The notes under the pieces: generated by a model | The model's input: only the letters and a program-made list of their open reading frames with translations | The model's database searches: none | Told to the model about the DNA's origin: nothing | Program-made: the position numbers and the translations under genes | In this document: in pieces, positions 5,428 to 63,590 of the stretch | Position numbering within the stretch: position 1 is the first letter of the stretch | Layout: each line of letters opens with the position of its first letter | NCBI RefSeq assembly: GCF_028583425.1 | Contig: NC_072806.1 | Location: 35,076,001 to 35,140,000 of the forward strand | Source of the DNA: Eublepharis macularius | Taxonomy: Eukaryota; Chordata; Lepidosauria; Squamata; Eublepharidae | Direction of reading: 5' to 3' | Length of the DNA stretch: 64,000 nucleotides

Positions 5428-5662
5428 TGGTTGTTGGGGGTTTTCCGGGCTGTCTTGCCGTGGTCTTGGCATTGTAGTTCCTGACGTTTCGCCAGCAGCT
5501 GTGGCTGGCATCTTCAGAGGTGTAGCACTGGTGCTACACCTCTGAAGATGCCAGCCACAGCTGCTGGCGAAACGTCAGGAACTACAATGCCAAGACCACG
5601 GCAAGACAGCCCGGAAAACCCCCAACAACCATCGTTCTCCGGCCGTGAAAGCCTTCGACAAT
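5428..5662. mobile_element. Head-to-head paired Penelope-like terminal repeat (family P1)
   Basis: Two nearly perfect complementary arms meet at about 5530. The right arm continues to TATTGT-type ends near 5660. An exact 14-bp direct repeat ACAAAGAAAATACA flanks it at 5414-5427 and 5663-5676. Each arm contains a hammerhead-like core. Target duplications of this length and inverted paired copies fit Penelope-like elements or LINE-mobilised short elements, not a cut-and-paste transposon. The second copy in this window is at 56385-56851. Confidence 0.65.
5539..5579 (+). ncRNA. Hammerhead-ribozyme-like motif, P1 right arm
   Basis: In order: stem I strand CCT (5539), the core CTGAAGA (5542-5548), one extra T, stem II strands GCCAGC (5550-5555) and GCTGGC (5563-5568), the core GAAA (5569-5572), a loopless short stem III of ACGT type, C at the expected cleavage position (5576), then AGG pairing back to CCT. 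A mirror copy lies in the left arm at about 5480-5520 on the minus strand. The short stem III is typical of minimal hammerheads, which often act as dimers. Activity is inferred only. Confidence 0.6.
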
Positions 5663-5925
5663 ACAAAGAAAATACAGTTTACAACTCTGGAAATTGGAAT
5701 TGATCTTTCAAAGTGGACTGAAAGGATTGGACGCTTGATGAATATTTATGAATATTTATTCGTTGTAGATTTTAGATATTTATTGTAGAATATTTATCAC
5801 ATTTGAGCACTTGCACTTTTGTATGAATTAAAAATATAAAAATTTACAACATATATTAAATATATAAATATAACCTTCGAGGTTTGTAATTTGAGAGTGT
5901 TCTACACTCGGAGGGCCCCTCTCAT

Positions 5926-6010
5926 TTGGCTCCCGAAAGCTTACACCTGGCAATCTTGTTGGTCTCGCATGAGCTGCAGGATTCGAACCTGGCTCCGTTG
6001 CAGATGCCAC
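5926..6010 (-). repeat. Decayed dispersed-repeat fragment beside the DHRS11 promoter
   Basis: The text GAAAGCTTA...CTTGTTGGTCT...GATTCGAACCTGG resembles the GAAAGCTTAT / GTTAGTCT / GCTACTGGACTC layout of the hammerhead-bearing retroelements of this window. It contains a tRNA-like B box (GGTTCGAATCC on the minus strand) but no cloverleaf could be built, so I do not call a tRNA gene. Confidence 0.35.
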
Positions 6011-7050
6011 TGGAAGGCGCCGGCATGGGAGGGCCTCGGCAGGCGCCCCAAGACCTCCCGGCCTGCCCTGCTGCCTTGCCAGACAGCCGCTTCGCCCCGC
6101 AGGTCCGCGGGCAGCCTTTCCCCACAAGCGTCGGGGTCCCCTCCTCGCCGCTCGGCCTGTCCCGCTTGCGCGCTCGCCGGCCCGCCCCAGCGCAGGTTCC
6201 GGGCGGCAGAGGCCGGCCTTGGAGGAGGAGGAGACGGAGCCGGAGGAGGGCCCGGGCGGCCCTTTCCCCTCCTCCTCCTCCTCCTCGCCGCGCCGGGGTC
6301 TTGCGCCTGCAAGAGGCGGCGGCGGCGGCCGGGCTGCGTGTTCGCTGCGCTCCGCCGGGCGGCCGGAGGGGAGGCGGCCGTGGCGCGGCTGGTGCGCCAT
6401 GGAGCGCTGGAAGGACCGGGTGGCGCTGGTGACGGGCGCCTCGGTGGGCATCGGCGCGGCCGTGGCGCGGGCGCTGGTGCAGCAGGGCATGAAGGTGGTG
6501 GGCTGCGCCCGGAGCGTGGACAAGATCGAGGTGAGAGGAAAGGGGCGAAGGAGCGCGCAAGAAACATGGCAGGCGCGGGGAAAGGCGCGCAGGAGGCGGC
6601 GGCGGACCGCTCGGCGCTGAGCCGGGGCGCGCCTTGGAATCGTCGCCAGGAGCCGGAGAAGGGGCGGCGGACGGGGCAGGTGGAGGAAGGGCACGGAGCG
6701 AGCGGCCGGCGGTCCCCGTCCCTTCCTTGGGAGGAGAAGCGCCGAGCGCCTTTGGAGCGCCTCCGCCTCGCCCGTTCATTCATTCATTCATTCCGCAGAC
6801 AATGCGCGGAACGCCTCGTGGTGGGCGCGCCGTGGCGGCGCTGGCGCTGGCCGGGAGGGACGCGCGCCTCGGGGCGGCGGGTGGGGAAGCGGCCGAGAAG
6901 GGCGGGGGAGCCACAGCACGTGCCTCCGGGCTGGGGGGCGCGGCCCCCTTTTCTCTTTGTCTGGGCGAGGCGGGGAGGGGGAGACGCCCCCGCCAGACGC
7001 CGCTCCTCTTGTCCTTCTCCGCGGTCAGAGCGATCCCCACCCGCGGCAAA
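5990..7050. promoter_or_regulatory. CpG island, DHRS11 promoter and exon 1
   Basis: About 1 kb of very GC-rich sequence, dense in CpG and in GGGCGG-like boxes, surrounds the DHRS11 start codon at 6399. It is the only such island in the window. It holds long spurious open frames on both strands, as expected for low-stop GC-rich DNA. It points to a broadly active CpG promoter; no TATA box stands out. The MRM1 start has no comparable island in this window. Confidence 0.8.
6399..6530 (+). CDS. DHRS11: DHRS11 exon 1 (coding part)
   Basis: 44 codons from ATG to GAG, followed by GTGAGAG. It encodes the first strand, the glycine-rich NADP-binding loop (T12, G13, G17, G19) and the arginine-containing CARSVDKIE region, which in this family favours NADPH. 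It ends in phase 0. Confidence 0.95.
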
Positions 7051-7408
7051 CCCTCAGCGAGCTCATTTGAAAAAAGGGGCTGATCCCCAAAGGAGCCTGT
7101 AAAAACTTTAATTTTCCTTGTGTTTGCTTTTGTGTTGCGGGCCGGTGGCAGAGGGATTCTTACATACAGGGTCAACCTGCTGCAGCTTTGTGGCATCTTG
7201 AGGACTAAGAAGATGTGTCCCAATGTAAACTTTTATGGGAAGGAGCTCCCTTAAAAGTGCTCTGTCCCCCAAAAGTTGGTGCGGGAATTAAATGTTAGTC
7301 TTTCAGGGGCCAGAAGACGCCTGCTGCGACCAACTTGCAGGTTACCCTTCTTAAGTACAGAAGGATGCCATCCGGGGACAGAGGTGTATTTCTTGCCAGA
7401 GCATCAAG

Positions 7409-7442
<34 letters not shown>

Positions 7443-13400: not shown

Positions 13401-16400
13401 TGTCTACTCTGATCTACAGTGGCCCTTCAAGGTCTCAGGGTGGAGAAGTATTTCTCCTAGCAGCTGCTGGGCATCAAACCCTCGGCAGTCCCTTGAGCAG
13501 CGCCCTCTGCAGGAAAAAGGTAAAGGTGCAAGCACCAAGTCATTACTGACCCATGCGGGGGACGACACATCACAACGTTTTCTTGGCAGACTTTTTATGA
13601 GGTGGTTTGACATTGCTTTCCCCAGTGATCTACACTTTACCCCCAGGAAACTGGGCATTCATTTTACTGACCTCGGAAGGATGGAAGGCTGAGTCCGCCA
13701 GGATCGAACTCAGGTCGTGAGCAGAGCTTGGGCTGCAGTAGGAAAGACCCTTCTGTTTCAAGAGTCACTGCTACTCAACGTCAACCATAGCGATAAGGAC
13801 AGACCAGTGGTCTGATTTGGCACGAGGCAGCTTCATAGGTTTGGGAGGATGTTAGTTCTTTCTCTGTAAACATAGAATCATAGGGTTAGAAGAGACATCT
13901 AGGGTCATCTAGTCCAATCCCCTGCACAATGCAGGAAATTCACAAATATCTCCCTCCCCGCAGTGGCCCCTGCTCCATGCCCAGAAGATGGCAAAACACC
14001 ATCAGGATCCCTCGCCAAACTGGCCTGGGGAGAATTGCTACCTGACCCCCAGGTGTTGATTGGCATCACCCTGGGCATGGGAGAAGGGGCCACAAGAACT
14101 AAGCACTGATGTAACCCTTCCTGCCCTCCCTCTCATGATCTGCCCAGGTTCATAGAATCAGCATTGCTGTCAGATGGCCATCTAGCCTCTGCTTAAAAAC
14201 CTCCAAAGAAGGAGAGCCCACCGCCTCCCGAGGAAGCCTGTTGCACTGAGAGACTGCTCTAACTGTCAGGAAGTTCTTCCTAATGTTTAGCCAAAATCTC
14301 TCTTGATTTAATTTCAATCTGTTGGTTCTGGTCCAGCCTTCTGGGGCAGCAGAAAACTATCCCACGCCATCCTCTATAGGGCAGCTCTTCAAGTACTTGA
14401 AGATGGTTATATCTTTGCAGTCGTCTCCTATTCAGGCTAAACATACCATAAGAAAACAACCCTTCTATGTATGCTAGCCAAATTAGATTATGGTGATCAC
14501 GTCACATGGGACACACTGAGTCAAGCTGTTGGTCCCTCAAGGTCCGTATTGTCTGCTTTGACTGGCAGCGGCTCCCCAGGGCCATCAACTTTTCCAGTTA
14601 AGGATCCAAACGAGATCAACAAAGGGCCTGTATAAGCAAGTCCTCTTGAATTAACTGAGAACTATATAGCTTGTAGATAAGTGGCATGTTGATGCATAAA
14701 GCTTTAGCAAACCGCAAAACTAGTTTTTGCAAGTCCTTTATCAGGAGCTGGCACACACAAGGTCTCATAGATCAGGATGAGTAGCCGAATTTGTCTGTAG
14801 CAGTAGAAAAGAGCAAGAGTCCAGTAGCACCTAGAAGACTTCTTGTTAGTGACGGGCCATTTAGTTGAAAAAGAGCTGGATGAACTCATTAGCACAACTC
14901 ATTAGCATATGTCATGCCCCTTGACATCACCGGAAGTGTGTCATTAACATAACTGATTTGCATATGTCACGCTCCCTGACATCACCTATCCTGGCTGTTT
15001 TGGACCCAATCCTGGCCATTCAGGGCCCAAAATGGCCAAAAGTGGCTGAAAATGGCCAAAAAGGGCCCCCAAATGGTCAGGATCGGGCCACTGATGACCA
15101 GGAGAGTGATCCACCACCTGTCAGAGGCCTGATCCAGGCTGTTTTGACCCCAATCCAGGCCGAAACGGGCCCAAAATGGCCAAGTCAGGTGGGTGGGGCC
15201 ACCTGACGTGACCTCTTTGGGGAACTGCCAGAACTGCGTTCTTGTGCGTTCCCCCTCGAAATGAGCCCTGGTTAGTGATAGGATATGATAGAATTTTGTT
15301 AGTGATAGGATATGAGCTTTCGTGAGCTACAGCTCACTTCTTCAGATATACCTAGAATGTACATCCATCTGTCCTTATGCCTTGGAGAGTGGAGTGATTG
15401 CAGAAGCCGAATGATAATAGCCAGTGAATGACAATGGCAGGCGTGATTGAATAGGGTGGGGTATGCAGAGGGGTAGTAGGTGTGGAGAAATGAGCAGTAT
15501 TTCAGCAGTGTTTCTGTGTTTGGATTTATGCTGTTTTCAAGTTTCTACCACCCTTATACCTATTTGTTCTACAACCCTTATACCTATTTGTTCATTGAAC
15601 GTCCTAGCTGTTGATTCATTGACTTGGAATGTGTAAACCATGAATGAATGGTACCCCTCTGCATACCCCACCCTATTCAATCACGCCTGCCATTGTCATT
15701 CACCAGCTATTATAATTCGGCTTCTTCAACCACTCCTCTCTCTAAGATACAAGGATAGATGGATTCACATTCTAGTGGTATCTGAAGAAGTGAGCTGTGA
15801 CTCACGAAAACTCATACCCTACCACAAATTTTGTTAGTCTTATAGGTGCTACTGGACTCTTGCTCTTTTCTACAAGGTCTCATAGTGAGTAATACACACA
15901 AGAGGGCCCTGGCCTATTGCTTTACTGAACTGGCATAAATCTGCACATGGTTCACGCTTGGACTACTGGCAACTTTCCCTCTCTATCATTTCCCTGTCTG
16001 TAAAGCATCTCTCAATGTGCCCATAACAATGTTGGCATGCCATTCTGTTCACGTACTGGTTATTCTAGCATTCCACTTACCCTTCCAGTGTACCTTAAAT
16101 ATATCATTTTCTTTTAAGTGCCATATTTGGTTCCATACGGAGCCACGTTTGGTTCTGGAACCATAGGTTGCAACAGAGACCTCCGCTCCATGGTCTCAGG
16201 CAGTGGATTTTCCTATCATGTAATATCTTTTATCTGGAGATGCTAGGGTTTGAACTTGGGACCATTCGGCAAGCAAAACAGAAGCTCTGCCATTGAGCCA
16301 CACTCCCATAATTGTGTGCGTGCGTAGAGATAGGGCCTGCACATTGTAAAGTGTTGAGAGGAACATTGTGTGCGCACACCCTATTGAAACCCCTGTCGAT

Positions 16401-19400
16401 GGCAGCTAGACCATCCAGACATAGGGGCAAATTTTGCACATGCTGCGATAAAGTCCCCCCCCCCCCCAATCTAGTCAATGCTTCCCTTCATACTGTGGGA
16501 GACAGCATCTATGAGCAGTTGTCTTAGAGAGAAATTTACTGGCAGAGGAGAAAATAAATGGTTGCATTTAGAGCTTCCTGGGGACCCAAGTAAGAGAACT
16601 CGACCTGGGCTTGTCCAACTCTGTCCATGTTTGGGTTTTGCTTTTTGATGTGCCAGAGGAGTGGGGGCAGATTTTTATGTGAGCGTACGCCCTTGTTGAC
16701 TTCCAGCAGGGCTGGTTGAGCCCTTTCTCAAAATGATTAAGCGAGTTTCAGGCATAGACTGTGAGTATAATTAATCACCGTGATGATTTCTTCCAAATCC
16801 GGTGTTACGAAGTGGCAGCAAGTAAGCATTGCCAAAGCATCACTTCCATTCCAGGAGGCTCATAAATCAAACGGCTTTGGGCTGCCGAGACAGCTGGTGC
16901 CTGCCTTTTCTGCGAAAAGAGGGCTTGCTTGGCTCAGAAACTTGCTCTGATGAAGGCAGGGCTGTGTTTTTGTCTTGATGGCTCAGTGGGCGTTTTGGAA
17001 CAAAGCTTGTCGGGCTGTTCAGGCACTGGAAACAGTGCTCCTGGCTATTTGGGGGTTCCATGGAAGCTCACGGAGGGGTTCTCAAGGAAAAGACCACTAA
17101 TTCTGGCCGTTGTCTAGTGGGGTTGGTTGTCTGGCTGAGTCTTGGCTGCTGAATGGGGTGGTGGTGGTGCCGATACACGACAGGAACCCAGCTTGCCCTG
17201 CTGATCAATGGCATAGGAAGGGGCTGGAATCCCCTTTTGGGACTGTGCTTAATAAAAATCTGTCTATATGAAAGGGAAACCGTTTTCCCGACGACACACT
17301 TTTAATCCTGGTGCGCCTGCGCAGGAGCACCAGCATAAAAAGTGTGTCCTGGCCAGTGTGGCTTCCAGAGGGAGCCACTGCTGCGGGATAGTCAGGCAAG
17401 CCTGCCTGCCTCTCTGGAGGGAGCCACCGTTGTGGGATGGCCGGGCAAGCCCACCCTCCTCTCCAGAGGGAGCCACCACCACGGGAAGCCCAGCATTCCT
17501 GAGTTTTCTAGGGCCCGTTTTTTAAAAAACAGACTCTGTTGATAGTAATAATAATAACATTCAATTTATATCCCGCCCTTCAGGACAACTTAACACCCAC
17601 TCAGATTGGTTTACAAAGTATGCCATTATTATCTCCACAACAATCACCCTGTGAGGTGGGTGGGGCTGAGAGAGCTCCGAGAGAGCTGAGACTGACCCCA
17701 GGTCACCCAGCTGGCTTCAAGCGGGGGAGTGGGGAATCAAACCCGGTTTTACAGATTACAATCCTGCCGCTATTAAGTGACTGACCCAAGGTCACCCAGC
17801 TGGCTTCAAGCGGAGGAGTGGGGAATCAAACCCGGTTTTACAGATTACAATCCTGCCGCTATTAAGTGACTGACCCAAGGTCACCCAGCTGGCTTCAAGC
17901 GGAGGAGTGGGGAATCAAACCCGGTTTTACAGATTACAATCCTGCCGCTATTAAGTGACTGACCCAAGGTCACCCAGCTGGCTTCAAGCGGAGGAGTGGG
18001 GAATCAAACCCGGTTTTACAGATTACAATCCTGCCGCTATTAAGTGACTGACCCAAGGTCACCCAGCTGGCTTCAAGCGGGGGAGTGGGGAATCAAACCC
18101 GGTTTTACAGATTACAATCCTGCCGCTATTAAGTGACTGACCCAAGGTCACCCAGCTGGCTTCAAGCGGGGGAGTGGGGAATCAAACCCGGTTTTACAGA
18201 TTACAATCCTGCCGCTATTAAGTGACTGACCCAAGGTCACCCAGCTGGCTTCAAGCGGAGGAGTGGGGAATCAAACCCGGTTTTACAGATTACAATCCTG
18301 CCGCTATTAAGTGACTGACCCAAGGTCACCCAGCTGGCTTCAAGCGGAGGAGTGGGGAATCAAACCCGGTTTTACAGATTACAATCCTGCCGCTATTAAG
18401 TGACTGACCCCAGGTCACCCAGCTGGCTTCAAGCGGGGGAGTGGGGAATCAAACCCGGTTTTACAGATTACAATCCTGCCGCTATTAAGTGACTGACCCA
18501 AGGTCACCCAGCTGGCTTCAAGCGGAGGAGTGGGGAATCAAACCCGGCTCTCCAGATTAGAGTCCTGCTGCTCTTAACCACTGCACCAAACTGGCTCTCA
18601 CGTTGTATAAAACAATTCAAATAAAACAAAGGGTGACAAGCACCATTTCCCGTTTCATTCCAGTTCGAAAGGCCTTCCAGAAAAGCAAGTTTTCAGTCCG
18701 GGCTTTTATTCACCCAGGCATTTAAATGGGCCGGATGCTCTCTGCCCCCTCCTTTCTTAGACAGGCACACGCCTGTGGAAAGAGTCTCTGCTCAAAGTCC
18801 AAGGTCTGAAAAGGGGGGTGTTTTTTTTTGACCAAATAGCGCACAGCTGCAGTCCAAGATGCTCTTTTGGCCTTGGATATTAGTCTATATTGGAGGGACT
18901 TTGCTATAATGAGACAAGTCTCGATGCTTCCATGTGAACTAGAAGGCTAGGTAGGGAGTACCTGGGGATGCAGAGATCTTTTGAGAAGGGTTAGAGTAGG
19001 GGAAGCTGGCGAAGGTGCTGGGCTAAAACACATTGGAGTGGGAAGATTGATTGGTTCTTTAAAATCATTAACTGACATTTTAAATAACAGTTGCAAGTTC
19101 CCTTAGGCACGCATCTTTTTTTTTTTTTTAATTTAAAGCCAGTTTGATTCTCTTCTGACATGTTGCATTTGCCTTTTTCTAGCTTCATTTCTCAAGATCC
19201 CTTTCTCTTTTGCTTTCATAATGGTGAAAAACAACTACCCTATAAGGCAGGCCAGCATTTTCATTCATGCATGGATTATACATTGCAAGTCAATGAATCA
19301 GCTGCTAGGACATTCAGTGAACAAATACAGTAAGGTACGGGTTGTAGAAATTTGAAAATAGCATAAATCTAAACACAGAGATGAAACACTGCTGATTTCT

Positions 19401-22400
19401 CCACAGCTACTACCCCTCTGCATATCCCACCTAATTCAATCACGCCTGCTTTGTCATTCACCGGCTATTGTCATTTACCTGCTATTGTCATTCGGCATCT
19501 GAAATCACTCCACTCTCCCAAGATATAAGGACAGATGGACTTGCATTCTAGCTGTATCTGAAGAATTGAGCTGTGACTCTTGAAAGCTCATATCCTACCA
19601 CAAATGTTGTTAGTCTTCTAGGTGCTACTGGACTCTTGCTCTTTTCTGGTGCTACAGACAGACTAACACAGCTATCCACCTTGCTGAAGAAAGCTTAAGT
19701 AATTAAACATGACATCTTTAACAATGCAGAAACTCCCCAGTAGGATTATATCTACATCAACAGACAGCACCCAGTAGAATAGTCTACAGTCCCTGTTGTG
19801 AATGGCTGAGAGAGTGGCTTTCTGGGATCATTAAGCAATCTAATGGCAGAGGTGAGGTTTGAACTGGGTTCTTCCTGGATCCTAGCTTGTTCACTCAGCC
19901 ACTATATGACCCTAGTTCTCTAAGGGTCAAACTAAATGTGCAGGTTTTTAAAGAGTTGGATGCAGGTTTCCCAGACACAACTCAGGTTCGCCACACAGCA
20001 GCTGTGGGGAATGGCTATTAAAAAATAAAGCAGAGCCCACATGGCCTCAGAACGTCGCTGGAGGGGGGGGGAGAGGAAGGGCTTTTGCCTCCCCCCCCCC
20101 AAGCTGTTTCCTGTGTCAAAATAGCAAGGGGGAAGGTATTTCTCTGTTTCTATTGCACAGAGTACACCATACGGAGCAGCAAAAGCAGAGACACTCCCAG
20201 TTGGCTATTTTGGAAAACAGTTTAAGGAGGAAGGGGAGGAGGGGAACCCAAGCTGGGTCTGGGGAACTTGAACTCGACTCTTTAAAAACCTGCATGTTTA
20301 GTTTGACCGTAAGCTCCTTGGAGGCAAGAGGCCAGTCATCTTTTCCTCGTGAAGCTAAGCTGTCCTTTAAAAGCGGCAGTAAATGGTCTGAGAGCTTCTG
20401 ATACTGCTGCGTTGCCAAAACTTTGCAGGAGCAGATTAGAACTTGGGTTAGGGCTTTTCTAGTTGTGGCTCTGTAGAATCATCTGTTTGAGACCCGACCA
20501 TGTACAGGCAATATGTTTTGCTTAAAGATGCTTTTAAAGTGTAGCTGAGAAGGTTCTCGCTATTTAGAGGACATGAGAGGACGGAGGCCTCCATGGGGCA
20601 TGTGTGACTGGCTGTTCGCAGTTTGAAGTGTCGCAGTCCGGTGTGTGGCAGGTGTTACCAAGTTGAAGGCAAGGAGGGGTCTGTGACAGAACTTGAATCA
20701 AAATGTCGGGTTTGAGTTGCTAAAGTTGGGAACAGCTGTTTATTTACTTCCTTCTTTCCTTTAGACCATACTTTTCTCCCTGATAGAGACCCAAAGTGGC
20801 TTACACTGATCTCCTCTTCATTTTATCTTTGCAACAACCTTGTGAGGTAGGTCAGGCCGAGAGTGTGTGATGGTCCAAGGTCATCCAGTAAGCTTCCATG
20901 GCTGCGTGGGGATTTGAATCTGGGTCTCCCAGATTCTAATGTGACAATCTACCCGCTAACACTATGCTAACACTGACATGTCTATATTTGATTTCCACCC
21001 TATCTTTCAAACCAGAAGAATCCCTCCACGGTTACTGATATAGAAGAGTAAAATGCCCATCCTTTCTGACATAGCGTGGCATCCTAGGGAAGCCCCAGTT
21101 CTCAGTTTCTGTCACCTGTCCATAGATAGAAAGGATAGAACGGGATGTGAATCAAAACGGGATGTAATGCGGGTACATTGTCGCATTAGAATCTGGGAGA
21201 CCCAGATTCAAATCCCCACTTAGCCATGGAAGCTTACTGGGTGATCTTGGACCATCACACACTCTCGGCCTGACCTACCTCACAAGGTTGTTGTAAGGAT
21301 AAAATGAAGAAGAGGAGATCAGTGTAAGCCACTTTGGGTCTCTATCAGGGAGGAAAGTATGGTCTATTATAATAATAATAAACATAAAAATAACACCAAC
21401 AACATTGGATTTTTATACTGTCCTTCAGGATGACATAACACCCCCTCGGAGCGGTTTACAAAGTATGTCATTATTATCCCCACAACAAAACACCCTGTGA
21501 GATAGGTGGGGCTGAGAGAGCTAGAAGCTGTGACTGACCCAAGGTCACCCAGCTGGCTTCAAGCGGACGAGTGGGGAATCAAACCGGGTTCTCCAGATTA
21601 GAGTCCCGTGCTCTTAACCACTACACCAAACTGGCTCTCCAGTTCAGAAGTTCTTGACTAGTGAACAGCGCGAGTGGTGAATTAATTTTCTTGTTTCGTC
21701 AGTGAGGCAGATCCTGGAATTCTGCTTCTCTTCTCCACTCCCCCTCCAGGCTGTGGGTCCAGACACCATGTGATTCTTCCTCTCTGGCTAGAAGTCCGTT
21801 GCACGTTCTGAGGCTGACATGTCTGAGACAGGGTTGTTTGTTCTTGTTAGTGTCAAACCACCAAAGCCCAGCAGCAGAGTGGAAGGAAAGCTTCCTCAGG
21901 GTTGTGGAGCTGGCTGAATGATCTCTTAAAGCCAGTCTTGGAGTATCTGCCCCCCCCCCTACATTTAGCATCATTTGATTAGGACAGGAGGATGTTTCAT
22001 CATAACGGGCAGGCAAGCCAGTTCTCAGAAGGGCAGAATTGCAAATTTATTTGTGTAAGAAAATATTTCCCTCCGGTCTTCAGCCACTACAGCATTCGGG
22101 TTATTGGCAAAACGTAAAAGCCATTTCCAGGAAATGAATGGCGGTTACAATCCACGGATCTGGTAGTACAACACAGCGGTAATAAAAAGCAAGATGTGCA
22201 ATCCAAAGAGCGAATTAAAAGGCCAGAAATAAACTGAAATTAGCAGCTGTAGGTATGAACCCATCCGATTATGAAAGCTGAAATATGAGAGAGAAGGAAG
22301 ACACTAAAATCTCCGTTCGGCACTGCTAATCTTCCAGCGGGGTTTGATCCAACTGCTGCTGGAAGCCCTCCAGAAAAGCACAGTTTTTACCCTCCCTAGG

Positions 22401-37400: not shown

Positions 37401-40400
37401 AGGCAAGCCCTTTGCCTGTGCATCGTTCTGCGTGGTAGAAAGGAGTGGAGGAGGATGATCAAGGGAAGTTCTTGGTAGAAGGTTGTATTGGAGGCCAGTT
37501 GAGAAATTCCTGCAGGTTTCTTGACCCTTATCGTTCCCATGACACACACAAACACACATATACACCACCTAGAAGGAGGTAAAGACTGCATCTCTCACAG
37601 CAGAAGTGGCAGTGAGACAAGAAACTGTGCAGCCTCAAAGAAGGACATGGCCTGGTTGCTGAGGCAGTGGGGACATGGCTGCTTTTTTGCTGAGAGCCAG
37701 ACATTGTAGGCGAGGCTGGAGGAGGTAGAGTTTGCAAGCAGATGTTGGACAGAAGGAAGGAGGTAAACACATAGGATCAAGTCCACAGCTCTATGCCAAC
37801 AGCTGATTCAAGTGTGGAGAACAGGAAGAGGAAATGGATGCTAAGACAAGCCCCTTCATCTGTGCACCCGAGCCTTTGGGCAGGCAATGGAGGGGCCAGA
37901 AGCCAGCAGGCTCTCCAGTCCTGCATGAGGACCAAAGCAACCCCTAGCCACCAGCTTCCACGCTCTGGCAAATCAGATATCGTGAAACCTTCATTGGATC
38001 CTGTGCTGCGAGAGAAAGAGCCTGGCCACAAAAGCTCAAGATGGTGTAGTGGATTTCTCCTTTTGATTGGTGTCATTTTCAGGAGTTTCTTGGGCTTTGG
38101 ATCTGTGCTTTTGGGGTGTTTCTGTTATTTTCCTCTTTCTCTCTTTTCTGGTTCCTCTACAGCATGAACGGCCATAGCGTGGTCCCTCAGTCTGTGGTGC
38201 ATTTTTACAGTGCCACAAAATATGCCGTCACAGCATTGACAGAAGGGCTACGGCAGGAACTCCGAGAAGCAAAGACACACATACGAGCCACGGTGAGCTT
38301 AGCTTGGAGTTACTTGGCAGTTTGTGAAAACAAGTCTAGGGAATACAGGCCGGTAGGATTCTACACAACATGTACCCCAAAAAACAGATCTGTTAATAGG
38401 GTGCCTCAAGAATTCTTCAACTGCTCATAGAGATGACACTCTCCCAACCCTGAATTAAAATTGCAGGTGTACTTTGCTTTTGCTCCTAACAAGGTAGGGA
38501 AGGGTAAGAATGAGCCTCTTTTGTCTCTACACGAGTGGCTGTTTGAGATGTAAAAACCCAGCACATTGGTTTATGCAGAAGTGCAACAGCCTTCCTCCCT
38601 GGAGGGCAAAGTCTCTACCAATTGGATAGAGGGAGCCAGTGTGGTGTAGCGACTACAGTGTTGGATTAGGATCTGGGAGAACCAGGTTTGAATCCTCTGT
38701 TGAAAAAGATCCAGAGGAGTTAGCCGTGTTAGTCTGTAGTAGCAAAATAGTAAAGAGTCTAGTAGCACCTTTAAGACTATCCAACTTTACTGTAGCATAA
38801 GCTTTCGAGAATCACAGTTCTCTTCATCAGATGTGTCATGCATCTGATGAAGAGAACTGTGATTCTCAAAAGCTTATGCTACAGTAAAGTTGGTTAGTCT
38901 TAAAGGTGCTACTGGACTCTTTTCTCTGTTGAAAAAGTAAGTTACAAACCCTGTTAGGATGTTGCTTTTTTGTTCTCTCTCTCTTCTTAGTGCATATCGC
39001 CGGGACTGGTAGAGACTGGATTTGCTTTTAAACTCCATGATAACGATCCCGAGAGAGCTGCAGCAACGTACGAGAGCATTCGTGTAAGTGACCGAGCGAA
39101 CAAATGTGGTGGGGAAAACAAAGACTGATTTGAATCCTTTCGGTCTACCGATGAAGACTATGAACTCCATCTGTGGATGAAGTGATTTCATCCATTGGTG
39201 GTGGGGAGAAGGCTTCTTAAAACCTTTTGGCATCTGTGTGCATTAAGACAGGCTCCTCAAAAATGTCCTGGTCTTTGTGGAAACTGGGTCAGCGGGAGGT
39301 TTGGGGAGGGGGGTGCTGGAAAGGGACAAGCTTGGAACAAGAGTTGGAGCAAAGACAAAGGTGCCACCCCTCAGTCACCTGCTCCCCGTTTTCACTGCCT
39401 TGACCCGTGAGGGCAGCTGTCTCTCCAGTGTGGGAAAGGATTCCTCTCTTCTCCAAAAATTCAAACTGCCGCTCGCATCAGCCAGTCAGAGTTCTGGCAG
39501 TTTGCTTCAGGGGCAACCATGGTTGCCTAGTGGAGTGTTACAGTGTTTGAATTTCCAGCTGCCTTTGAAGCCAGTTTGGCTCAAAAGAAGCAAAGTATGA
39601 ATCTAATGAGTCAGTAAGAACAGGCGGTCATGAATGCTGCTCTGCTGGGTTACCTCAGATGTCTGGTTTGCCCCGAGTTGTGACAGAGGCAGACCTATCA
39701 GCTGGCAGGGCTCTGCGTGAGCCGGTGTGGCGTAGTGGTGGGAGGATTGGCCTCGGGCTTCGGATGCCTGGGTTCAAATCCTCACTTGGCCCCGAGCCAC
39801 GTTGGGTGGTCTTGGGCCCATCGTTCCTTCTCGGTCTGACCTCCCTCATCAGGGTATTGTAGGCTGTGAGTGGCAGGTGGCATGCATGCACACCATCCTA
39901 AGCTCCTTTTGAGAAAGGGTGGAATAAAAATGGATAGAGGGGGACCTGAAAGCAGTGGAGGGAAGATGGGTTGAAATTCAGAGACAGCGTGGAGAGGTCA
40001 CGCCACTTCCAGACGTGCCAAGTAGGCCATGGGAAACCCCAGATAAGCAGGCGTGAGGGACCCCAGATAAGTAGGCAGGGAAACAGTCTTGGTTGCCTGG
40101 ACTGAAGGAGTATGGCTGGCCTCAACGCTGATAGTAGGCAGGAGCAGAAGATTGGCTATTGCTTACCTCTCAGCAGGGCTTTTTTTCAGCAGGAACGCGG
40201 GGGAACGGAGTTCCGGAACCTCTTGAAAATGGTCACATGGCTGGTGGCCCCGCCTCCTGATCTCCAGACAGAGGGGAGTTGAGATTGCCCTCTGCACCAT
40301 GCGGCGCGGAGGGCAATCTCAACTCCCCTCTGTCTGGAGATCAGGGGGGCGGGGCCACCAGCCATGTGACCATTTTCTCCGAGGGCAAGCCACTGAGTTC

Positions 40401-51803: not shown

Positions 51804-51861
51804 TGGGAGTATATATTCAATACATGCTGATACAGTGTTGTTATCATTATCTATCTGTTGT

Positions 51862-52745: not shown

Positions 52746-52795
52746 TTTAAAAAAACATCTTTTGTGGCTTTTCTTTCTTCTTACACATTTATGGC

Positions 52796-52878
52796 ATTAG
52801 AAAAGAGCAAGAGTCCAGCAGCACCTATAAGACTAACAAAACGTGTTAGCTCACTTCTTCAGCTACCCATCTTGATTT
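52796..52878. mobile_element. Truncated hammerhead-family retroelement upstream of MRM1
   Basis: GAAAAGAGCAAGAGTCCAGC... is the left-arm start of family P2, cut short after 83 bases. An exact 11-bp direct repeat ACATTTATGGC flanks it at 52785-52795 and 52879-52889. Confidence 0.7.
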
Positions 52879-52887
52879 ACATTTATG

Positions 52888-52935
52888 GCGTGTGTGTGTG
52901 TGTGTGCTTTTGCATTCTCTCTCTCTTTCACACAC

Positions 52936-52971
<36 letters not shown>
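52888..52971 (+). repeat. (TG)n and (GA)n microsatellites in the MRM1 5' region
   Basis: A TG run at about 52888-52905 and a GA run at about 52940-52971, some 160-240 bases upstream of the MRM1 start codon. Confidence 0.95.
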
Positions 52972-52973
<2 letters not shown>

Positions 52974-53131
52974 GTTTTGCCCAAATGGAAACTCTGGTCA
53001 GTCTAAGGGCCAAACATGTAGGCCTCATCAAAAAACATTCTATAGTTGGGCCCTCGGTAATGGCTCCTCTTGATCTACCGCTTGCTGCTTCTTGTTTCTT
53101 AAGGCTGAGACGAAGAGACGCCAGACCCTCA

Positions 53132-53949: not shown

Positions 53950-56900
53950 GTGAGTTATTCAGATGCATAATTATTATTTCCTTCTTTCAAGCAGCTCAGC
54001 ATGGCAGATGAGAAGGTTCCCATTTTATCCTCACAACAACCTTGTAAGCTAGGAGAGGCTAGAGAGAGAGAATTACCGGCCAGCACTTAAGCTGTGAACT
54101 TCATGACCAACAGGGCTTGGAGCCCAGATCTTCTTAGTCCAACTCCAACATGGACTTAAATCCCATCCTCTCGTGGAGGTTCGGTGCAGGCAATTGTACA
54201 GCCGTCCACACAGACCTACAAAAGTTACTAGTCCTCAATGGTTTTAATTTGCCTGCTTGCCTAAACAGACAATCCAACTTTAACCCTCCCTGCATGAGAT
54301 CAAGATGGGTAGCCATATTAGTCTGTCTGTAGTAGTAGGAAAGAGCAAGAGTCCAGTAGCACCTATAAGACTAACAAAATTTGTGGCAGGGTGTGAGCTT
54401 TCGTGAGCCACAGCTCACTTCTTCAGATACTGAAGAAGATATCAGAAGAAGTGAGCTGTGGCTCACGGAAGCTCATACCCAACCACAAATTTTGTTATTA
54501 TAGGTGCTACTGGACTCTTGCGCCTCCCTGCATGGTGAGGCAGCGTGGAGAAAGGTCATCTGCACAGGACTACAATCTTTCAGTCAGGGTGGATAAAAAT
54601 CAATAATTTTTTAAATTTTTTTTTAAAAAATCAGATTTTTTTTATTTAAATCGGATTTTTTTGATTTAAATCGGATTTTTTAAAATAAAATGCTTTTTGA
54701 GGAAAATATATTACCATCCAAAGGTTATTCCATCATGAAATAAAGATTAGTTTTTAATTATGTAGAATAAGGCTGTATATGTTTAATATTTTTGGTAAAT
54801 AAATTCCATTAATCCATTCACAATGTCATGCTCTTCCAGAGGTTTTTGTAAGATTATTGGGCAGTTTCTCTGCCTACAAGATATTATCACAGATGCTTGG
54901 TTTTGCAGTTCTCAAAACTGAATTTGTGTCAGCTCAGCAGAGTTCACATGCCTCTTCTTCACAGCAAAAATGTTATAACGTGAACAGAGTTGAGAAAAAG
55001 ACCTTAATCCTATTGTTCTACAAACCTATGAAGACAGAATCAACCCCTCCAGTGCTAAGTTTCAAGAAGTTCAGTGAATAGAAACAATATTTTTCTGATT
55101 GTTTGGAGTGGAATAGATCTGCACAAGAAGAAACTAAGTGTGAGGAGGGAGGGGCAAGCAGTACAAAATGAAAGTGAAACTTTTTGAGCACAATACTGCA
55201 CAAGTCTTTGGATCTTTTGTGTGTATGACCCGAGGTTTATCACATTCTTTCCTTGGGGGAAAAAACCTGTAATGGCAGCAGGCCGTAAAAGAGACCCAGT
55301 TTGGGAATACTTTAATGAAGTTCCTTTACCTACTGGTAAGGCAGGCATCTACTTGCATATTAGAGTTATACCAGCAAGAATTAGTCTTTATGTAGAAAAC
55401 TATGATTTAAATCAAGCCTTACTGACTAGTGATTTAAATCAAATCCACCCTGCTTTCAGTGCAATCTTAAGCAGAGTTACTCCAGTGGAATCAATGGCCT
55501 TAGACTGGAGTAACTCTGCTTAGGATCCAGAGGAGTTAGCCGTGTTAGTCTGTAGTAGCAAAATCGAAAAGAGTCCAGTAGCACCTTTAAGACTAACCAA
55601 CTTTACTGTAGCATAAGCTTTCGAGAATCACAGTTCTCTTCCTCAGATGCATGGAGGGTCCCTCCACACATCTGATGAAGAGAACTGTGATTCTCGAAAG
55701 CTTATGCTACAGTAAAGTTGGTTAGTCTTAAAGGTGCTACTGTACTCTTTTTGATACTTCTTAGGATTGCAGTGTTAGTCTGTTAAGGTCAGTATTGTCT
55801 ATGCTGAGCGGCAGCCGCTCTTCCGGAAGTCAAACAGAGGTCTTTGGCATGCCCTGCAGCTTTGATCACTTACCTGGAAATGCTGGGAATTGAACCTGCA
55901 GCCTTCTGATGGAAAGCAGATGCTCCGCCGCAGAGCCACAGCCCCTCCCCAGTTTGGAAACCTGTATTAATGTATTAATAATGTATTATTGATACATTAA
56001 TGGGATAATGTATTAATAATATAACCCCCTCCCCCAAAGCAGCCACATAAATTTTAAACATGCCTCTTTCTGCTTCTCCTTATTTCACAACAATCTTAAA
56101 TGTACCATTTAATTCCCAAATTGTTCCATGGTATGTTGAATTTAAATACAAATCACAGGCTCCATTTAGGAATAAATCTTTTGCTTTGCGTTGGTCGATT
56201 ACTGACCATTTAATAATGCTCTCAGTCTGAAGATAATACTTTCCATTTTCCTTTGTATACAAATGTTCATGATAAGATCCATCTGTTTAGAAAATTATAC
56301 CTTGAGGCCATTATTAATATCTCTATATTATTAATGCCTATTTTTTGGCATACTTCTTTTTTTTAATAAACGTTTTCATGTTTTATGTATTGTCAAAGGC
56401 TTTCACGGCCGGAAAACAATGGTTGTTGTGGATTTTCCGGGCTGTATTGCCGTGGTCTTGGCATTGTAGTTCCTGACGTTTCGCCAGCAGCTGTGGCTGG
56501 CATCTTCAGAGGTGTAGCACCAAAAGACAGATCTCTCAGTGTCACAGTGTGGAAAAGGTGTTGGCAGGTAATTTTTATCTACTCAGGAAGGTGGGGTTGG
56601 GCTGAGTCATCCTGTAAGAGTTTCCCAGGCTGTGGAATGCTAATGGAGGGAGGCTTCACTGTATCCTGAGGAGGTTCTTTTGCATATGGATTGGTGCTTG
56701 ATATGCTAATCTTATCTGCAGGGCTATTGTAGGGTATAGAGTCTTTCTGAATTCCTTATTGGAATTCAATTCAATCAGCTGCTGGCGAAACGTCAGGAAC
56801 TACAATGCCAAGACCACGGCTATACAGCCTGGAAAATCCACAACAACCACAGTTTTCATGTTTTGTTTGGGTTTCATCTTCTGTTTTAAAACTATGATAA

Positions 56901-59900: not shown

Positions 59901-62884
59901 GAGCGGCGGTGCGGGGGGGGGGAGGGTTTCAAGAGTAAGGAAGTTCTGGGTGAATGGAGATCGAGAGACAGGACGGAGCTTGTCGGATGGGGTCATGTCA
60001 AATGAATTTGGATTCCTGCACTCCGTAGGGGAGACCCAAGACAAGAGAAATGGTGGGAGGTCTCTCAGCACTCATAGACGGTGCTTATGCAGCATATACA
60101 CTGGCAAGTGCCTGTCTTACCTTCTTCTCCTTCCCTTTGGCTTGTTTCAGAGTCTCGTCCGAGCACCGATCCTTGCCAGCAACCCTTTCCAACTGATATA
60201 AAAAGCCTGTAAAAAAGTGTTGATGCTTAATTGAAACATCTGGGGGAATTAGTTTCTTTAGTATAAAGTGCAATTTATGAACATGCAGGGCGTCACGGTG
60301 ATCTCTTTAATTGGGTCCTCATTGGCCAGCCTAACCTTCGTTGCTGGGCATGCATAAATTTCGATACTCTTATTGCCTGGAAACTGCCGATTTTTCAAAA
60401 AATGAGGCCAGAGGGAAGCGCTCCCCCACCCTCCGCTTTTACTAAAATGAATTTTGTAGTTAATTGGGTGCTCTTCTTTCTATGTCAAGGAATGCAATGA
60501 AAAGGTGAACTTGTGCCAAATTTTGCTGGATCTAATTGAAATCCATCTAACCCGTTCAATGATTATATCTGAAGGACTGCCAGCTTTCTTACAAACTTAA
60601 CTGTCAATTAAGACCCACTGGTGGGCTGTTGTTTGACTGCCCCTGCTTTTTGAGGTGCGGTAAATGGGTAGTCAGTGAAACGAGGGCCTCTTCTGTGGTG
60701 GCACCCCAATTGTGGATTACTCTCCAGAATGGAACACAGCCAGTGCCTTCTTGGTTGGCGCTCAGTTGCTGGGTGGATATTATTCTGTGTTCCTGAGTGC
60801 TGGGTGGCTATTACCTCTGTGCTCCTGAGATTTTAATTAATTTTAATTGGTGTTTAATTAGATAATGGTTGCTGGTTCCTGCTTCTTTTTGAACCGCTTG
60901 CCCCCCTTTAATGTCAGTAGGTTGTTTTTTTGTTATGGCGGGAGTTTTGCATAAGCAATAGAAATATTTAAAATAAATACCCTGCATGGCTTTTTGCTTG
61001 CCTTACTTATCTGTGAAATGACAACATGCAGGGCTCCATTTTTGAGGGATATACTTAAAAATGGTAACAAATGTAATTCATTAGTTTCCCTTTCTCCAGT
61101 CTTTCCTATCCAGTTTCCCACTTTTCCATCTATAACAGTTCTGCAAGACATTTTAAGGCCAAGACAGGACTTGAGAAATCCCAGGCACCAGGTAGCCATG
61201 GTGCCTAGAAACTTCATTGTGGTGCCAGGTATTTTGTCTGGTAGCAATAATTAGAAAATTCGATCGTACCGTAACCCTGAAGGCTGAAATATGAGTCTGA
61301 CTTCTAATGTTTTGTGCTGGCTTCTAGAGCCAAAGAAAATTTATCAAGGACTAGGCTAAGAGATGGCAGAAGGCCCAGGGTCATCCCGGAAGCTTCAGTA
61401 ATGAATAGGGATTTGAACCCATGGCTGCCAGTTCAAGTCCAGTAGCACCTTTAAGACTAACTTTATTGTACTAACCTCATTCAGTCCAGTAGCACCTTTA
61501 AGACTAACCAACTTTATTGTAGCATAAGCATCTGACGTCAGATGCATCTGACGAAGAGAGCTGTGGTTCTCGAAAGCATATGCTACAATAAAGTTGCATC
61601 TGATGAAGAGAGCTGTGGTTCTCAAAAGCTTATGCTACAATAAAGTTGGTTAGTCTTAAAGGTGCTACTGGACTCTACTATTTGGCGACTACAGACTAAC
61701 TTGGCTGACTCCTCTAGTTCAAGTCCAGTGTGCAATCCACAACACCACACTTCCTCTGACCTATGCCACCATAGTAGAGGTGGACGTAGACCATACATAT
61801 GCCTCTGACCTGGTAAGAAATCCTCACCTGTCTAGGCTCAGAAACATTCTTTTGTGATGAGTCCCCCGTCACTCATTCACAATGATCAATTGGCCAAAAT
61901 ACCTCCTGGATTTTTTTTTAATGATAGTTTGTTTATGGATTACCAAAAACCTCTTGGAGAACTTTGTGATGACAAAATAGTGTGTTCGTTTGTTTATTAA
62001 TTTTTTTATCCTGCTTTTCGACCACAAATTCATTCTCAAAGTGGCTTAGAAGAATTAAGACATACAAGCAGGGCTCATTTCAAGGGGGAACACACAGGAA
62101 CGCAGTTCCGGCAGTTCCCCCAAAAGGTCACATGTCAGGTGGCCCCGCCCACCTGACTCTCGGCCATTTTGGGCCCGTTTCAGCCTGGATTGGGGCTGAA
62201 ACGGCCCAGATCGGGCCTCTGGCGGGTGGTGGATCGCTCTCCCGCTCATCAGTGGCCCGATCCTGACCATTTTGGGCCCCTTTTGGCCATTTTCAGCCCC
62301 TTTTTGCCATTTTGGGCCCAATTTCGGCCCTGAATAGCCAGGATTGGGTCCAAAACAGGCAGAATAGGGGATGTCGGGGTGAGGCATATGCAAATCAGTT
62401 ATACTAATGATACACTTCTGGTGATGGTAAGAGGCGTGGCATATGCTAATGAGATATGCTAATGAGTTATGCTAATGAGTTCCTCCAGCTCTTTTTCTAC
62501 GAAATGACCCCTGCATACAAGTGATATTAAAATGCATTGTAAATCATCTTTGGGAAAATAATTTTCGGTTGGAGCTGGATCCTGGCTTGGCGGAGGGGCA
62601 CTTGGCTGCACCCAACCATCCCTTGCACGCTCCAGTTGGTTTAGTTGGGACTGGGAGGTGGAGGAGGCTCTCAGCTAAGCTGGATCCAAGCATGCTGGAA
62701 GGGGGTAGATTTGTGCCTCTCCACTTCTTCCACTTCTCTTCCTGACTTCTTTACTTCTTGCAGGCAAAATCTGAACAAGGTTGGGATATCGTTGGGACAG
62801 TTGGCCACTGCGAAACCCAGAATGACATCCCCGTTGAGAGCTGCTTAGATTTCCACTGGATGAAGCCCACCGTCTTGTTACTAG
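53132..62884 (+). CDS. MRM1: MRM1, mitochondrial rRNA methyltransferase 1 (exons 1-3; continues beyond window)
   Basis: Exons 53132-53949, 57054-57147 and 62764-62884 join in frame with GT/AG borders to 344 residues plus one base. MRM1 is a SpoU/TrmH (SPOUT) enzyme that 2'-O-methylates one guanosine of the mitochondrial large rRNA (G1145 of human 16S), using S-adenosylmethionine, in the matrix. Seen here: an Arg-rich N-terminus with RGFS, fitting a mitochondrial targeting peptide; a weakly conserved linker about 100 residues longer than in human; the substrate-binding domain from [11 protein letters not shown] at about residue 144; and SPOUT motif 1, with Asn250 and Arg256 in [16 protein letters not shown]. 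Motifs 2 and 3 (knot and cofactor loop) lie in exons beyond the window; only the G of the LVLG-type strand is reached. Two starts are possible, 53060 and 53132. A good acceptor at 53102 (TTCTTGTTTCTTAAG) favours 53132. Confidence 0.93.
53965..54130 (-). repeat. SINE S2, 3' part
   Basis: Plus-strand text CATTTTATCCTCACAACAACC then TTGTAAGCTAGGAGAGGCTA matches the complement of the S2 body. Confidence 0.6.
54297..54522. mobile_element. Paired-arm hammerhead-bearing retroelement (family P2), MRM1 intron 1
   Basis: GGGTAGCCATATTAGTCTG start; two complementary arms meet near 54437. Exact 12-bp direct repeat CCTCCCTGCATG at 54285-54296 and 54523-54534. Confidence 0.75.
54585..55452 (+). mobile_element. 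hAT transposon, internally deleted, with BED-finger start
   Basis: CAGGGTGGAT at one end and ATCCACCCTG at the other, with ATTTAAATC repeats inside both ends. Exact 8-bp duplication CTTTCAGT at 54577-54584 and 55453-55460. From 55272 the plus strand reads [20 protein letters not shown], the start of a BED-type zinc finger as found at the N-terminus of hAT transposases. Almost all of the transposase after this is missing, so the copy is nonautonomous. The upstream 690 bases would be its 5' leader. Confidence 0.85.
55527..55759. mobile_element. Paired-arm hammerhead-bearing retroelement (family P3)
   Basis: CCAGAGGAGTTAGCCGTG start, arms meeting near 55660, right arm ending in a T run. Direct repeat CTTAGGAT at 55519-55526 and 55760-55767. 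Confidence 0.75.
55668..55707 (+). ncRNA. Hammerhead-ribozyme-like motif, P3 right arm
   Basis: CTGATGA (55672-55678), an extra A, stem II GAGAA/TTCTC, GAAA (55696-55699), short AGCT stem III, T at 55703, then ATGC (55704-55707) pairing with ACAT/GCAT at 55668-55671 except for one end base. The left arm holds its mirror at about 55612-55651 on the minus strand. Confidence 0.65.
55783..55945 (-). repeat. tRNA-derived SINE (family S1)
   Basis: Minus strand GGCTGTGGCTCTGCGGCGGA, GCATCTGCTTTCCATCAGAA, GGTTCAATTCC (B box), then the S1 body to GACAATACTGACC. Confidence 0.8.
56385..56851. mobile_element. Penelope-like terminal repeat with internal segment (family P1)
   Basis: Starts TATTGTCAAAGGCTTTCACGG-like (56388 onward), then the P1 arm, then about 250 bp of internal sequence (CAGTGTCACAGTGTGGAAAA, GGATTGGTGCTTGATATGC), and closes with an inverted part of the P1 arm from about 56777. 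Exact 13-bp direct repeat GTTTTCATGTTTT at 56372-56384 and 56852-56864. It shows that the arm belongs to a larger retroelement. Confidence 0.7.
57054..57147 (+). CDS. MRM1: MRM1 exon 2
   Basis: After CTTGCAG, one base completes Ser273, then [20 protein letters not shown] and [11 protein letters not shown] before GTAAAA. Nearly equal to human [20 protein letters not shown]. Confidence 0.95.
57390..57860 (-). mobile_element. L1-like LINE, ORF2 C-terminal remnant
   Basis: The minus strand reads [16 protein letters not shown] and then [20 protein letters not shown] with WLPVPEFL, the spacing and residue style of the L1 ORF2 C-terminal region. No catalytic reverse transcriptase part is present. 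MRM1 intron 2. Confidence 0.5.
58221..59555. mobile_element. 1.3 kb hAT-type element with internal minisatellite (family c)
   Basis: CAGGGCTTTTTTTGAGG to GAAAAAAAGCCCTG. Exact 8-bp duplication ATTATATC at 58213-58220 and 59556-59563. The terminal modules resemble families a and b. The interior holds repeated GCTGCTTTGAGTTCATTCTG units and a long AT-rich part. No transposase frame was seen. Confidence 0.85.
58330..58810 (+). repeat. Minisatellite inside the family c element
   Basis: The core GAGTTCATTCTG recurs about seven times, at irregular spacing of roughly 60-110 bases, separated by GT-rich and G-rich spacers (GGGTGGGTGGGG, GTGTGTGTATGTGTGCTGCT). Confidence 0.85.
59564..61320. other. MRM1 intron 2, little recognised
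   Basis: Mostly unrecognised sequence. The 8-bp flank of the family c element shows the unoccupied site continued here. Open frames on either strand look random. Confidence 0.35.
61330..61755 (-). repeat. tRNA-derived SINE (family S2), interrupted
   Basis: GATTTGAACCC, CAGGGTCATCCCGGAAGCTTC and, after the insertion at 61444-61715, GTGTGCAATCCACAACACCA are the minus-oriented S2 head and body. Confidence 0.65.
61444..61715. mobile_element. Hammerhead-bearing retroelement (family P3), complex copy
   Basis: One left arm and two tandem right-arm hammerhead units (at about 61544 and 61587). Exact 14-bp direct repeat AGTTCAAGTCCAGT at 61430-61443 and 61716-61729, in the S2 SINE. Confidence 0.75.
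62069..62513. mobile_element. hAT-type MITE, family a, full length
   Basis: CAGGGCTCATTTCAAGG to CGAAATGACCCCTG. Exact 8-bp duplication CATACAAG at 62061-62068 and 62514-62521. It ends 250 bases before MRM1 exon 3. Confidence 0.9.
62764..62884 (+). CDS. MRM1: MRM1 exon 3
   Basis: [14 protein letters not shown] through [15 protein letters not shown] and the first base of a Gly codon, before GTACGT. It matches human AQQGWLVAGTVG...SCLEFLWERPTLLVLG. The next exon, expected to start NEGSGLS, was not found before 64000. Confidence 0.92.
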
Positions 62885-62918
62885 GTACGTAATATCTTGG
62901 TATTTAAACCATGGTGTA

Positions 62919-63120
62919 AAATCAAAAAGAGTCCAGGTTGCATCTGACAAAGAGAGCTGTGGTTCTCGAAAGCTTGTGCTACAATAAAGTTGCATCTGAC
63001 TAAGAGAGCTGTGGTTCTCAAAAGCTTATGCTACAGTAAAGTTGGTTAGTCTTAAAGGTGCTACTGGACTCTTTTTGATTTTGCTACTACAGACTAACAC
63101 GGCTAACTCCTCTGGATCTA
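62919..63120 (+). mobile_element. Hammerhead-bearing retroelement (family P3), two tandem units
   Basis: Two direct copies of the hammerhead unit (about 62943 and 62990), then GGTGCTACTGGACTC...CTACTACAGACTAACACGGC. Exact 13-bp direct repeat AAACCATGGTGTA at 62906-62918 and 63121-63133. It lies 35 bases after MRM1 exon 3. Confidence 0.75.
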
Positions 63121-63492
63121 AAACCATGGTGTATAATTGTGGTGGAAGGTCAGTGCCCACAGTGCAGTTTGCTTTTGTTTAGTACTTTGTTGTTTTATTA
63201 ATAAGCATAAAATTGCAGTTTGCTATTGAAGGCTGAGAAGTGCAATAGGATAAAGCTGAAGTTTTCCATTTGGAAATGGGGATTTGCAAGGAGGGTATGA
63301 CCGAAGAAAGAAGTGAAGGAGACTGGTAATGAATTCACTCAGAGTCAGCTAGTTTTATAGACAGTGCGTATGAAATACATCAGCAGTCAAAGCAAATGGA
63401 ATCTTTCAGAAGTTCTCCCTTCTCCACCAGGGAAGGGCCCGGGGTGGAGGCGCACATGGCTGTGAAAGCACAAGTTGGATGCTTACAAGATG

Positions 63493-63590
63493 GATCTGAA
63501 GAAGTGAGCTGTGGCTCACGAAAGCTCATACCCTACCACTAATTTTGCTAGTCTTACTGGTGCTACTGGACTATCGCTTTTTTCCACTGC
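63493..63590 (+). mobile_element. Hammerhead-bearing retroelement (family P2), single short arm
   Basis: GATCTGAAGAAGTGAGCTGTG's first part, then GGCTCACGAAAGCTCATACC and GGTGCTACTGGAC. Direct repeat TACAAGATG at 63484-63492 and 63591-63599. The hammerhead core reads CTGAAGA...GAAA. Confidence 0.7.

Follow-up and report, generated by a model that had tools for sequence, protein, structure and literature searches.

A 64,000-nucleotide stretch of the Eublepharis macularius genome (contig NC_072806.1, positions 35,076,001 to 35,140,000 of the forward strand; hereafter the window) contains 11 dispersed repeat copies, sorted as families P1, P2 and P3 in an earlier note. Copies that retain the core region resemble hammerhead ribozymes with one base too many and almost no stem III. 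What are these repeats, and how could such a core act? We consider it very likely that they are pseudo-long terminal repeats (pLTRs) and 5′-truncated copies of two lineages of endonuclease-bearing Penelope-like elements (PLEs), with a minimal type I hammerhead in each pLTR. The hammerhead-type motifs in the window are real, and on our best reading they should cleave only as dimers or with the help of a protein. Read directly from the DNA are the core with its extra base, the loopless and palindromic stem III, the adjoining PLE coding sequence and the overlap of the P1 core with a start codon. The association of hammerheads with PLEs is already published (PMC11167929, PMC7761336, PMC6155905), and the window repeats are a well-marked instance of it. 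Beyond the earlier note, we observed that seven of the 11 copies are head to head, that stem III is palindromic and that the P1 extra base falls within a start codon.

Both strands were scanned with a strict descriptor, composed with the finding already in hand, that required CTGANGA, zero or one extra base, a perfect stem II of 4-6 bp, GAAA, a stem III ending in T with a loop of 0 or 3-6 nt, a base other than G at H17 and a stem I of at least 3 bp. It returned seven cores, three in P1 and four in P2 and P3, compared to none in 60 dinucleotide-preserving shuffles. All seven have the CUGANGA and GAAA boxes, the A15.1-U16.1 pair and a permitted H17. Every one also has exactly one extra base after CUGANGA, where the descriptor permitted zero or one, so that stem II does not directly follow A9. 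Stem III consists in each of two pairs with zero loop and is not closed within one molecule; its four bases are palindromic, ACGT in P1 and AGCT in P2 and P3. A looser CTGANGA..GAAA pattern had 20 matches in the window against 6.4 expected, the largest number in 100 shuffles being 13. The layout proposed earlier (CTGANGA, an extra base, stem II, GAAA and a loopless four-base stem III with C or T at the cleavage position) was found where it had been placed.

The P1 lineage has the following features in the window.

5428..5662, both strands: P1 copy in which two P1 pLTR ends stand head to head, with arms 99% identical; 14-bp target-site duplication (TSD) ACAAAGAAAATACA.
5480..5520, minus strand: P1 hammerhead in the inverted arm, passing the strict descriptor.
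5539..5579, plus strand: P1 hammerhead with stem I CCT/AGG, CTGAAGA, extra T5549, stem II GCCAGC/GCTGGC, GAAA and ACGT as palindromic stem III; cleavage predicted after C5576.
5548..5661, plus strand: P1 open frame, beginning at hammerhead A9 with the ATG at 5548-5550.
56385..56851, both strands: P1 copy with a longer upstream part of the pLTR; the minus arm has a tail and the plus arm begins within the hammerhead; TSD GTTTTCATGTTTTAT/GT.
56472..56512, minus strand: P1 hammerhead, passing the strict descriptor.

Two same-strand P1 cores lie 2,669 nt apart on contig C1, and the 5′ core was read as locus L124. There, the AUG of CTGAAG-AUG-CC opens a frame with one in-frame stop, at codon 39, followed by sequence resembling a reverse transcriptase (RT). 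Past the stop, the frame matches the PLE proteins L071 (tblastn, E = 1e-12) and L088 (2e-7). The RT assignment rests on these two matches; in the part of L124 examined, Pfam identified no RT and a solved-structure search returned nothing relevant. Because the AUG of the ribozyme opens a frame that leads into RT-like sequence, we read the P1 extra base as the U of a start codon, with A9 as its A and its G as the first base of stem II. This overlap explains half of the extra-base anomaly, namely that of P1. The extra A of P2 and P3 needs another reason, since the P3 parent that we saw begins its frame outside the core. An anomalous base in a ribozyme core can in this way be explicable by an overlapping start codon.

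A comparable arrangement is known from PAc, the Poseidon element of Anolis carolinensis, in which the frame begins at stem II, the cut lies 26 bp after the start codon and reverse transcription starts 111-118 nt into the frame (PMC11167929). In P1, the predicted cut after 5576 is 26 nt past the codon, and the copy ends at 5662, which is nucleotide 115. P1 is therefore like PAc in having its hammerhead at the junction of pLTR and open reading frame, a frame start at stem II, a cut offset of 26 and a copy end near +111-118, and both belong to a GIY-YIG plus RT family in which the tail is optional. These coordinates, rather than a sequence comparison, suggest that the two are homologous. The P3 parent that we saw is unlike PAc in that its frame does not begin in the ribozyme.

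P2 and P3 are homologous well beyond the core (blastn, E = 2.6e-17 and 1.1e-15). The core, the far end and, downstream, a stretch TTAGTCTT..AGGTGCTACTGGACTC are common to both, and P1 is separate; we therefore recognize two lineages in place of the three families described before. The earlier statement that the families share no overall sequence holds for P1 and fails for P2 and P3, so the original observation is borne out in part: the cores are real, and the claimed lack of common sequence is not. The P2/P3 features in the window are as follows.

14771..15871, both strands: P2 copy, an inverted pair enclosing an unrelated repeat (about 14854-15273); TSD ACAAGGTCTCATAG.
15310..15349, minus strand: P2 hammerhead passing the strict descriptor, with AGCT as stem III; cleavage predicted after C.
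15774..15822, plus strand: P2 hammerhead, stem III altered to AACT and no longer palindromic.
19240..19690, plus strand: P2 copy with a decayed core at 19550-19598.
38709..38923, both strands: P3 inverted pair; the minus core (38796-38833) is strict and the plus core has AAAA instead of GAAA; TSD CTCTGTTGAAAAAG.
52796..52878, minus strand: P2 tail fragment without a hammerhead core.
54297..54522, both strands: P2 inverted pair with cores at 54386-54434 (minus) and 54435-54483 (plus, CTGA changed to CAGA); TSD CCTCCCTGCATG.
55527..55759, both strands: P3 inverted pair, both cores passing the strict descriptor.
55611..55650, minus strand: P3 hammerhead with GCAT/ATGC as stem I; cleavage predicted after T.
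55669..55706, plus strand: P3 hammerhead, passing the strict descriptor.
61444..61715, both strands: P3 copy with a minus arm and two same-strand cores (61540-61588 and 61592-61640, 52 nt apart, both imperfect); TSD AGTTCAAGTCCAGT.
62919..63120, plus strand: P3 copy; its two same-strand cores, spaced 52 nt, have both decayed (CTGACAA and CTGACTA); TSD AAACCATGGTGTAAAAT/TAAT.
63493..63590, plus strand: P2 copy beginning at the hammerhead; core in 63488-63536.

A covariance model built from 16 P2/P3 cores, several window cores among them, found 14 window sites at E < 2e-12 and did not pick up the P1 cores. The strict descriptor is passed by four of these sites; in the other ten, stem I, GAAA, the CTGANGA box or stem III has decayed or is truncated. 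In the 49-column alignment, pairs 6-43, 18-31 and 21-28 switch between C-G and U-A, A-U and U-A, and G-C and A-U, respectively, and pairs 6-43 and 21-28 also show U-G or G-U forms. The sample was picked from 25 types, and 15 of its 16 rows came from a scan demanding five stem II pairs. Paired cells reached 91.3% compared to 82.7% in shuffled alignments, and double-change cells 21 compared to 9.1; neither value, nor the covariation score, was reached in any of 500 shuffles, and slid versions of the structure scored lower. Stems I and II are thus supported by covariation on three of five measures. The compensating changes pointed out earlier are real between P2 and P3; those drawn between P1 and P2/P3 compare sequences without detected homology.

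We next turn to the genome-wide setting. Exact matching on both strands of the 2.24-Gb genome, in which each reversed-pattern control gave 0, counted 49,500 copies of a 27-mer from the P2/P3 tail, 27,077 letter-perfect copies of the 41-nt P1 ribozyme, 12,946 of a P3-type 32-nt core (the newest, shorter-loop P3 subfamily left out) and 1,642 of the P2-type core. The letter-identical P1 ribozymes form a natural, very high-copy system for testing the role of the Penelope hammerhead. A GIY-YIG (PF01541) profile search, with 150 of 3593 candidates scored, gave at least 78 matches at E<=0.001, in frames of up to 722 amino acids. Among five of the frames submitted to Pfam, two contained RVT_1 and GIY-YIG, one RVT_1 below the cut-off, one GIY-YIG and one nothing.

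With four of the encoded proteins as tblastn queries, PLE coding sequence was found upstream and on the same strand of P1 repeats at L015, L021, L024 and L026. It was also found by tblastn beside P2/P3 repeats at L049/L050, L059 and L060, and in the other orientation at L063/L066. At the P3 loci L049 and L060 the coding matches lie upstream on the strand of the repeat; in L060, an open segment with a GIY-YIG match ends at 1121 and a P3 hammerhead stands at 1453 on the same strand. L059 and L060 are separated by about 60 nt and appear to form a single copy, some 3.1 kb long, whose 5′ end carries an inverted repeat. The repeats adjoin coding sequence of elements with telomerase-like RT and GIY-YIG, a linkage pieced together from several loci. 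The parent search that had been suggested was thereby successful, and coding of this kind beside both lineages upholds the view that the cores are PLE terminal-repeat hammerheads with a very short stem III. An opposite-strand, decayed hammerhead-like motif was also seen in the 3′ region of the element, 235-245 nt upstream of the P3 core, at L040/L041, L049, L059 and L060. An attempt to reach the 5′ end of the L015 parent led to an unrelated sequence (L123), and L125, examined as a possible tandem P3 parent, is not one.

Minimal type I hammerheads of PLEs and Terminons were reportedly described by Cervera & de la Pena (2014) and Lunse et al. (2017). PMC6155905, PMC7229834 and PMC7761336 place such hammerheads, without helix III or most of it, in PLEs, and state that they may self-cleave as dimers and that their role is unknown; one review calls it a mystery (PMC7761336). 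The window cores are like these in having almost no stem III, lying in pLTRs, being possibly dimeric and occurring in many copies. In their weak stem III they also resemble the double hammerheads of newt satellite 2 and avocado sunblotch viroid (ASBVd), where a longer stem III is shared by two units (PMC6155905, PMC6466107). These come from satellite and viroid contexts, unlike the window repeats. We know of no extra base in the newt satellite 2 or ASBVd hammerheads. The viroid precedent for the extra base invoked in the earlier note does exist: in the plus-strand hammerhead of chrysanthemum chlorotic mottle viroid (CChMVd), one extra residue lies between A9 and 10.1 (PMC3705267). The window cores have this one extra residue in common with CChMVd, which differs in being a viroid and in its helix arrangement and loop-loop contacts.

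With a loopless stem III of two pairs, only a 4-bp palindrome common to two RNAs would seem sterically possible, and a dimer pairing check found the double hammerhead nested and pair-consistent. Two units would pair through the 4-nt palindrome into a double hammerhead, or a PLE protein would aid folding; the PAc hammerhead cleaves only with protein (PMC11167929). Cleavage after C or U would cut tandem transcripts into unit RNAs. The PLE protein would then start reverse transcription at the tail, some 115 nt into the P1 frame, and insert the copy; it would often do so from both sides of a staggered break, and head-to-head pairs would result. The extra base of P1 would be retained because it is part of the AUG.

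Several results weigh against this account. The Rfam hammerhead models, run without a positive control, gave no match at E<=1 in the window and none at E<=10 in three short stretches; the earlier note had named such an absence among three outcomes that would count against its proposal. The canonical core has no additional residue after A9, and in CChMVd an extra A moderately lowers trans-cleavage and a U there raises it 3-4-fold (PMC3705267). Nearest-neighbour energies of the double hammerhead and of two monomers (-24.3/-23.8, -20.1/-21.0, -14.1/-15.2 and -16.3/-17.4 kcal/mol) do not, as computed, favour the former, and the free dimer fold (-22.1 to -36.5) differs from it. Two covariation measures are weak: both-sided change occurs in 5 of 10 P2/P3 pairs, a count reached by 20 of 500 shuffles, and the nine pair types are reached by 405 of 500. 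The stem II figures are moreover biased upwards by pre-selection, stem I being unselected. The L124 frame is interrupted by its stop. In PAc, no RNA-seq ends were found at the cut site, and mutants of the hammerhead ribozyme (HHR) still inserted (PMC11167929).

How do the head-to-head copies arise? By blastn, arms in both orientations are present in seven of the 11 window copies. Among the first 100 P1 cores listed, all 17 neighbours less than 1 kb apart were head to head (minus-then-plus); for P3 tails this was so for 11 of 14 neighbours, in a list inflated by local duplications. Tails were seen in the P1 copies 5428..5662 and 56385..56851. Nine of the 11 window copies have TSDs of 12-17 bp, with no more than one mismatch, at their borders or immediately beyond them. 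Among the 11 scanned, 19240-19690 gave no TSD and 55527-55759 an internal match only; by eye, an 8-bp CTTAGGAT flanks the latter. Random controls equalled the TSD score in 0-23 of 300 draws for the nine copies, and single TSDs are therefore weak. The copies show the head-to-head pLTRs, optional 30-40-bp tail and TSD by which PLE pLTRs are recognized, and the many head-to-head insertions serve as records of the PLE insertion mode.

Instead of two-sided target-primed insertion, a self-primed cDNA that folds back on itself could produce such pairs, and we regard this as coming close to an even call. Arms were compared in 41 P3 pairs, the 40 top matches of an inverted query plus one window copy, a choice of query that favours the head-to-head form in the sample. 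At two subfamily-marking sites the arms disagree in 2/40 and 1/40 pairs compared to 18.9 and 19.6 expected, and both arms therefore derive from one source lineage, a point in favour of folding back. The P1 locus L034 has two rare variants common to both arms, which a folded-back cDNA predicts, and self-priming has been proposed for rotifer Penelope (PMC3846280). In L007, L104 and L115, however, the two arms show differences at linked core sites that are not expected from one folded-back cDNA, and the PAc protein cuts and extends both strands in vitro (PMC11167929). A further objection comes from core position N7, where the arms disagree in 11/41 pairs, the most of any site, four of them by transversion (4 versus 24 over the other 77 sites; Poisson probability multiplied by 78 sites, ~0.02). 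This argument is weak because sites 6, 25 and 13 follow closely with disagreement in 9, 8 and 7 pairs; site 11 has three transversions.

It is also conceivable, if rather unlikely, that the motif is not kept for ribozyme action, P1 being conserved as coding and protein-binding RNA and P2/P3 reflecting recent multiplication of source copies. The P1 core does lie within the frame, PAc needs the initial 172 nt of the frame for its template and its HHR mutants still insert (PMC11167929), and dead copies would be alike through descent. Against this, the changes from P2 to P3 are compensatory in stems I and II, and both lineages retain every core base, a palindromic stem III and an H17 other than G. 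We sampled 25 distinct P2/P3 copies by their tails rather than their cores, all from one stretch of contig C1; the core was intact in 11, each of which has AGCT, a permitted H17 and three or more of the four stem I pairs. The first uncompensated stem II hybrid had 76 genome matches, a count that is uninformative since dead copies mutate singly.

A more doubtful proposal, to which we give little weight, is that the primary role of the palindromic stem III is that of a dimer-initiation site. Sister RNAs would kiss through ACGU/AGCU, and a dimeric PLE protein would carry both, one being reverse-transcribed from each side of the break; the outcome would be head-to-head copies with same-lineage arms, and cleavage would be a side branch gated by dimerisation. 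If this were true, cutting the P1 RNA would also end its use as messenger, given the start-codon overlap.

Less probable still is that the repeats are non-autonomous retrozymes, that is, circular-RNA retroelements, rather than parts of PLEs. The copies are short and include a few tandem units 38-52 nt apart (window 61543-61648 and 62937-63044; L012 and L020). Animal retrozymes are described as 150-450-bp tandem units with a type I hammerhead (PMC7229834); no window hammerhead lies within such an array, tandem arrangement being limited to two 52-bp doublets. PLE RT and endonuclease coding, moreover, adjoins the repeats of both lineages, which have PLE-like tails and head-to-head pLTRs. That the hairpins are microRNA precursors is highly improbable, as the Rfam microRNA matches at 38732-38944 and 5494-5565, like all others, score below their family gathering score, and both sit on inverted pLTR pairs, which form long hairpins.

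The closely repeated same-strand cores, which extend over 2648-2778 in L012 and 2256-2340 in L020, resemble tiny tandem arrays within P3 copies, and at C2:7190862-7191222 same-strand cores are spaced in multiples of 47 nt. Junctions in L012 and L020 reading ...GAAAGCT followed by GACGATGC... were considered as cleavage footprints and dropped, given CT microhomology with the next core. Outside the pLTR copies, microRNA matches below threshold also fall on short hairpins that are nearly perfect (31229-31315, 23839-23913 and 40265-40336).

Elsewhere in the window, a 322-amino-acid frame at 52985-53953 (plus strand) has SpoU substrate-binding and partial methylase domains and is probably an exon of an RlmB-like rRNA 2′-O-methyltransferase gene such as MRM1. 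Stretches resembling 5S rRNA at 7979-8096 (plus strand), 25101-25212, 4109-4241 and 4323-4439, of which only the first is above the Rfam cut-off (42 bits), are possibly 5S-derived short interspersed elements. A separate repeat family with 82-86% identity is present at 14854-15273, 46352-46781, 47583-48004, 62066-62510 and 25583-25908, its first copy sitting inside the P2 copy 14771-15871. Finally, an 89-bp unit is repeated ten times in tandem, at 98% identity, at 17690-18577.

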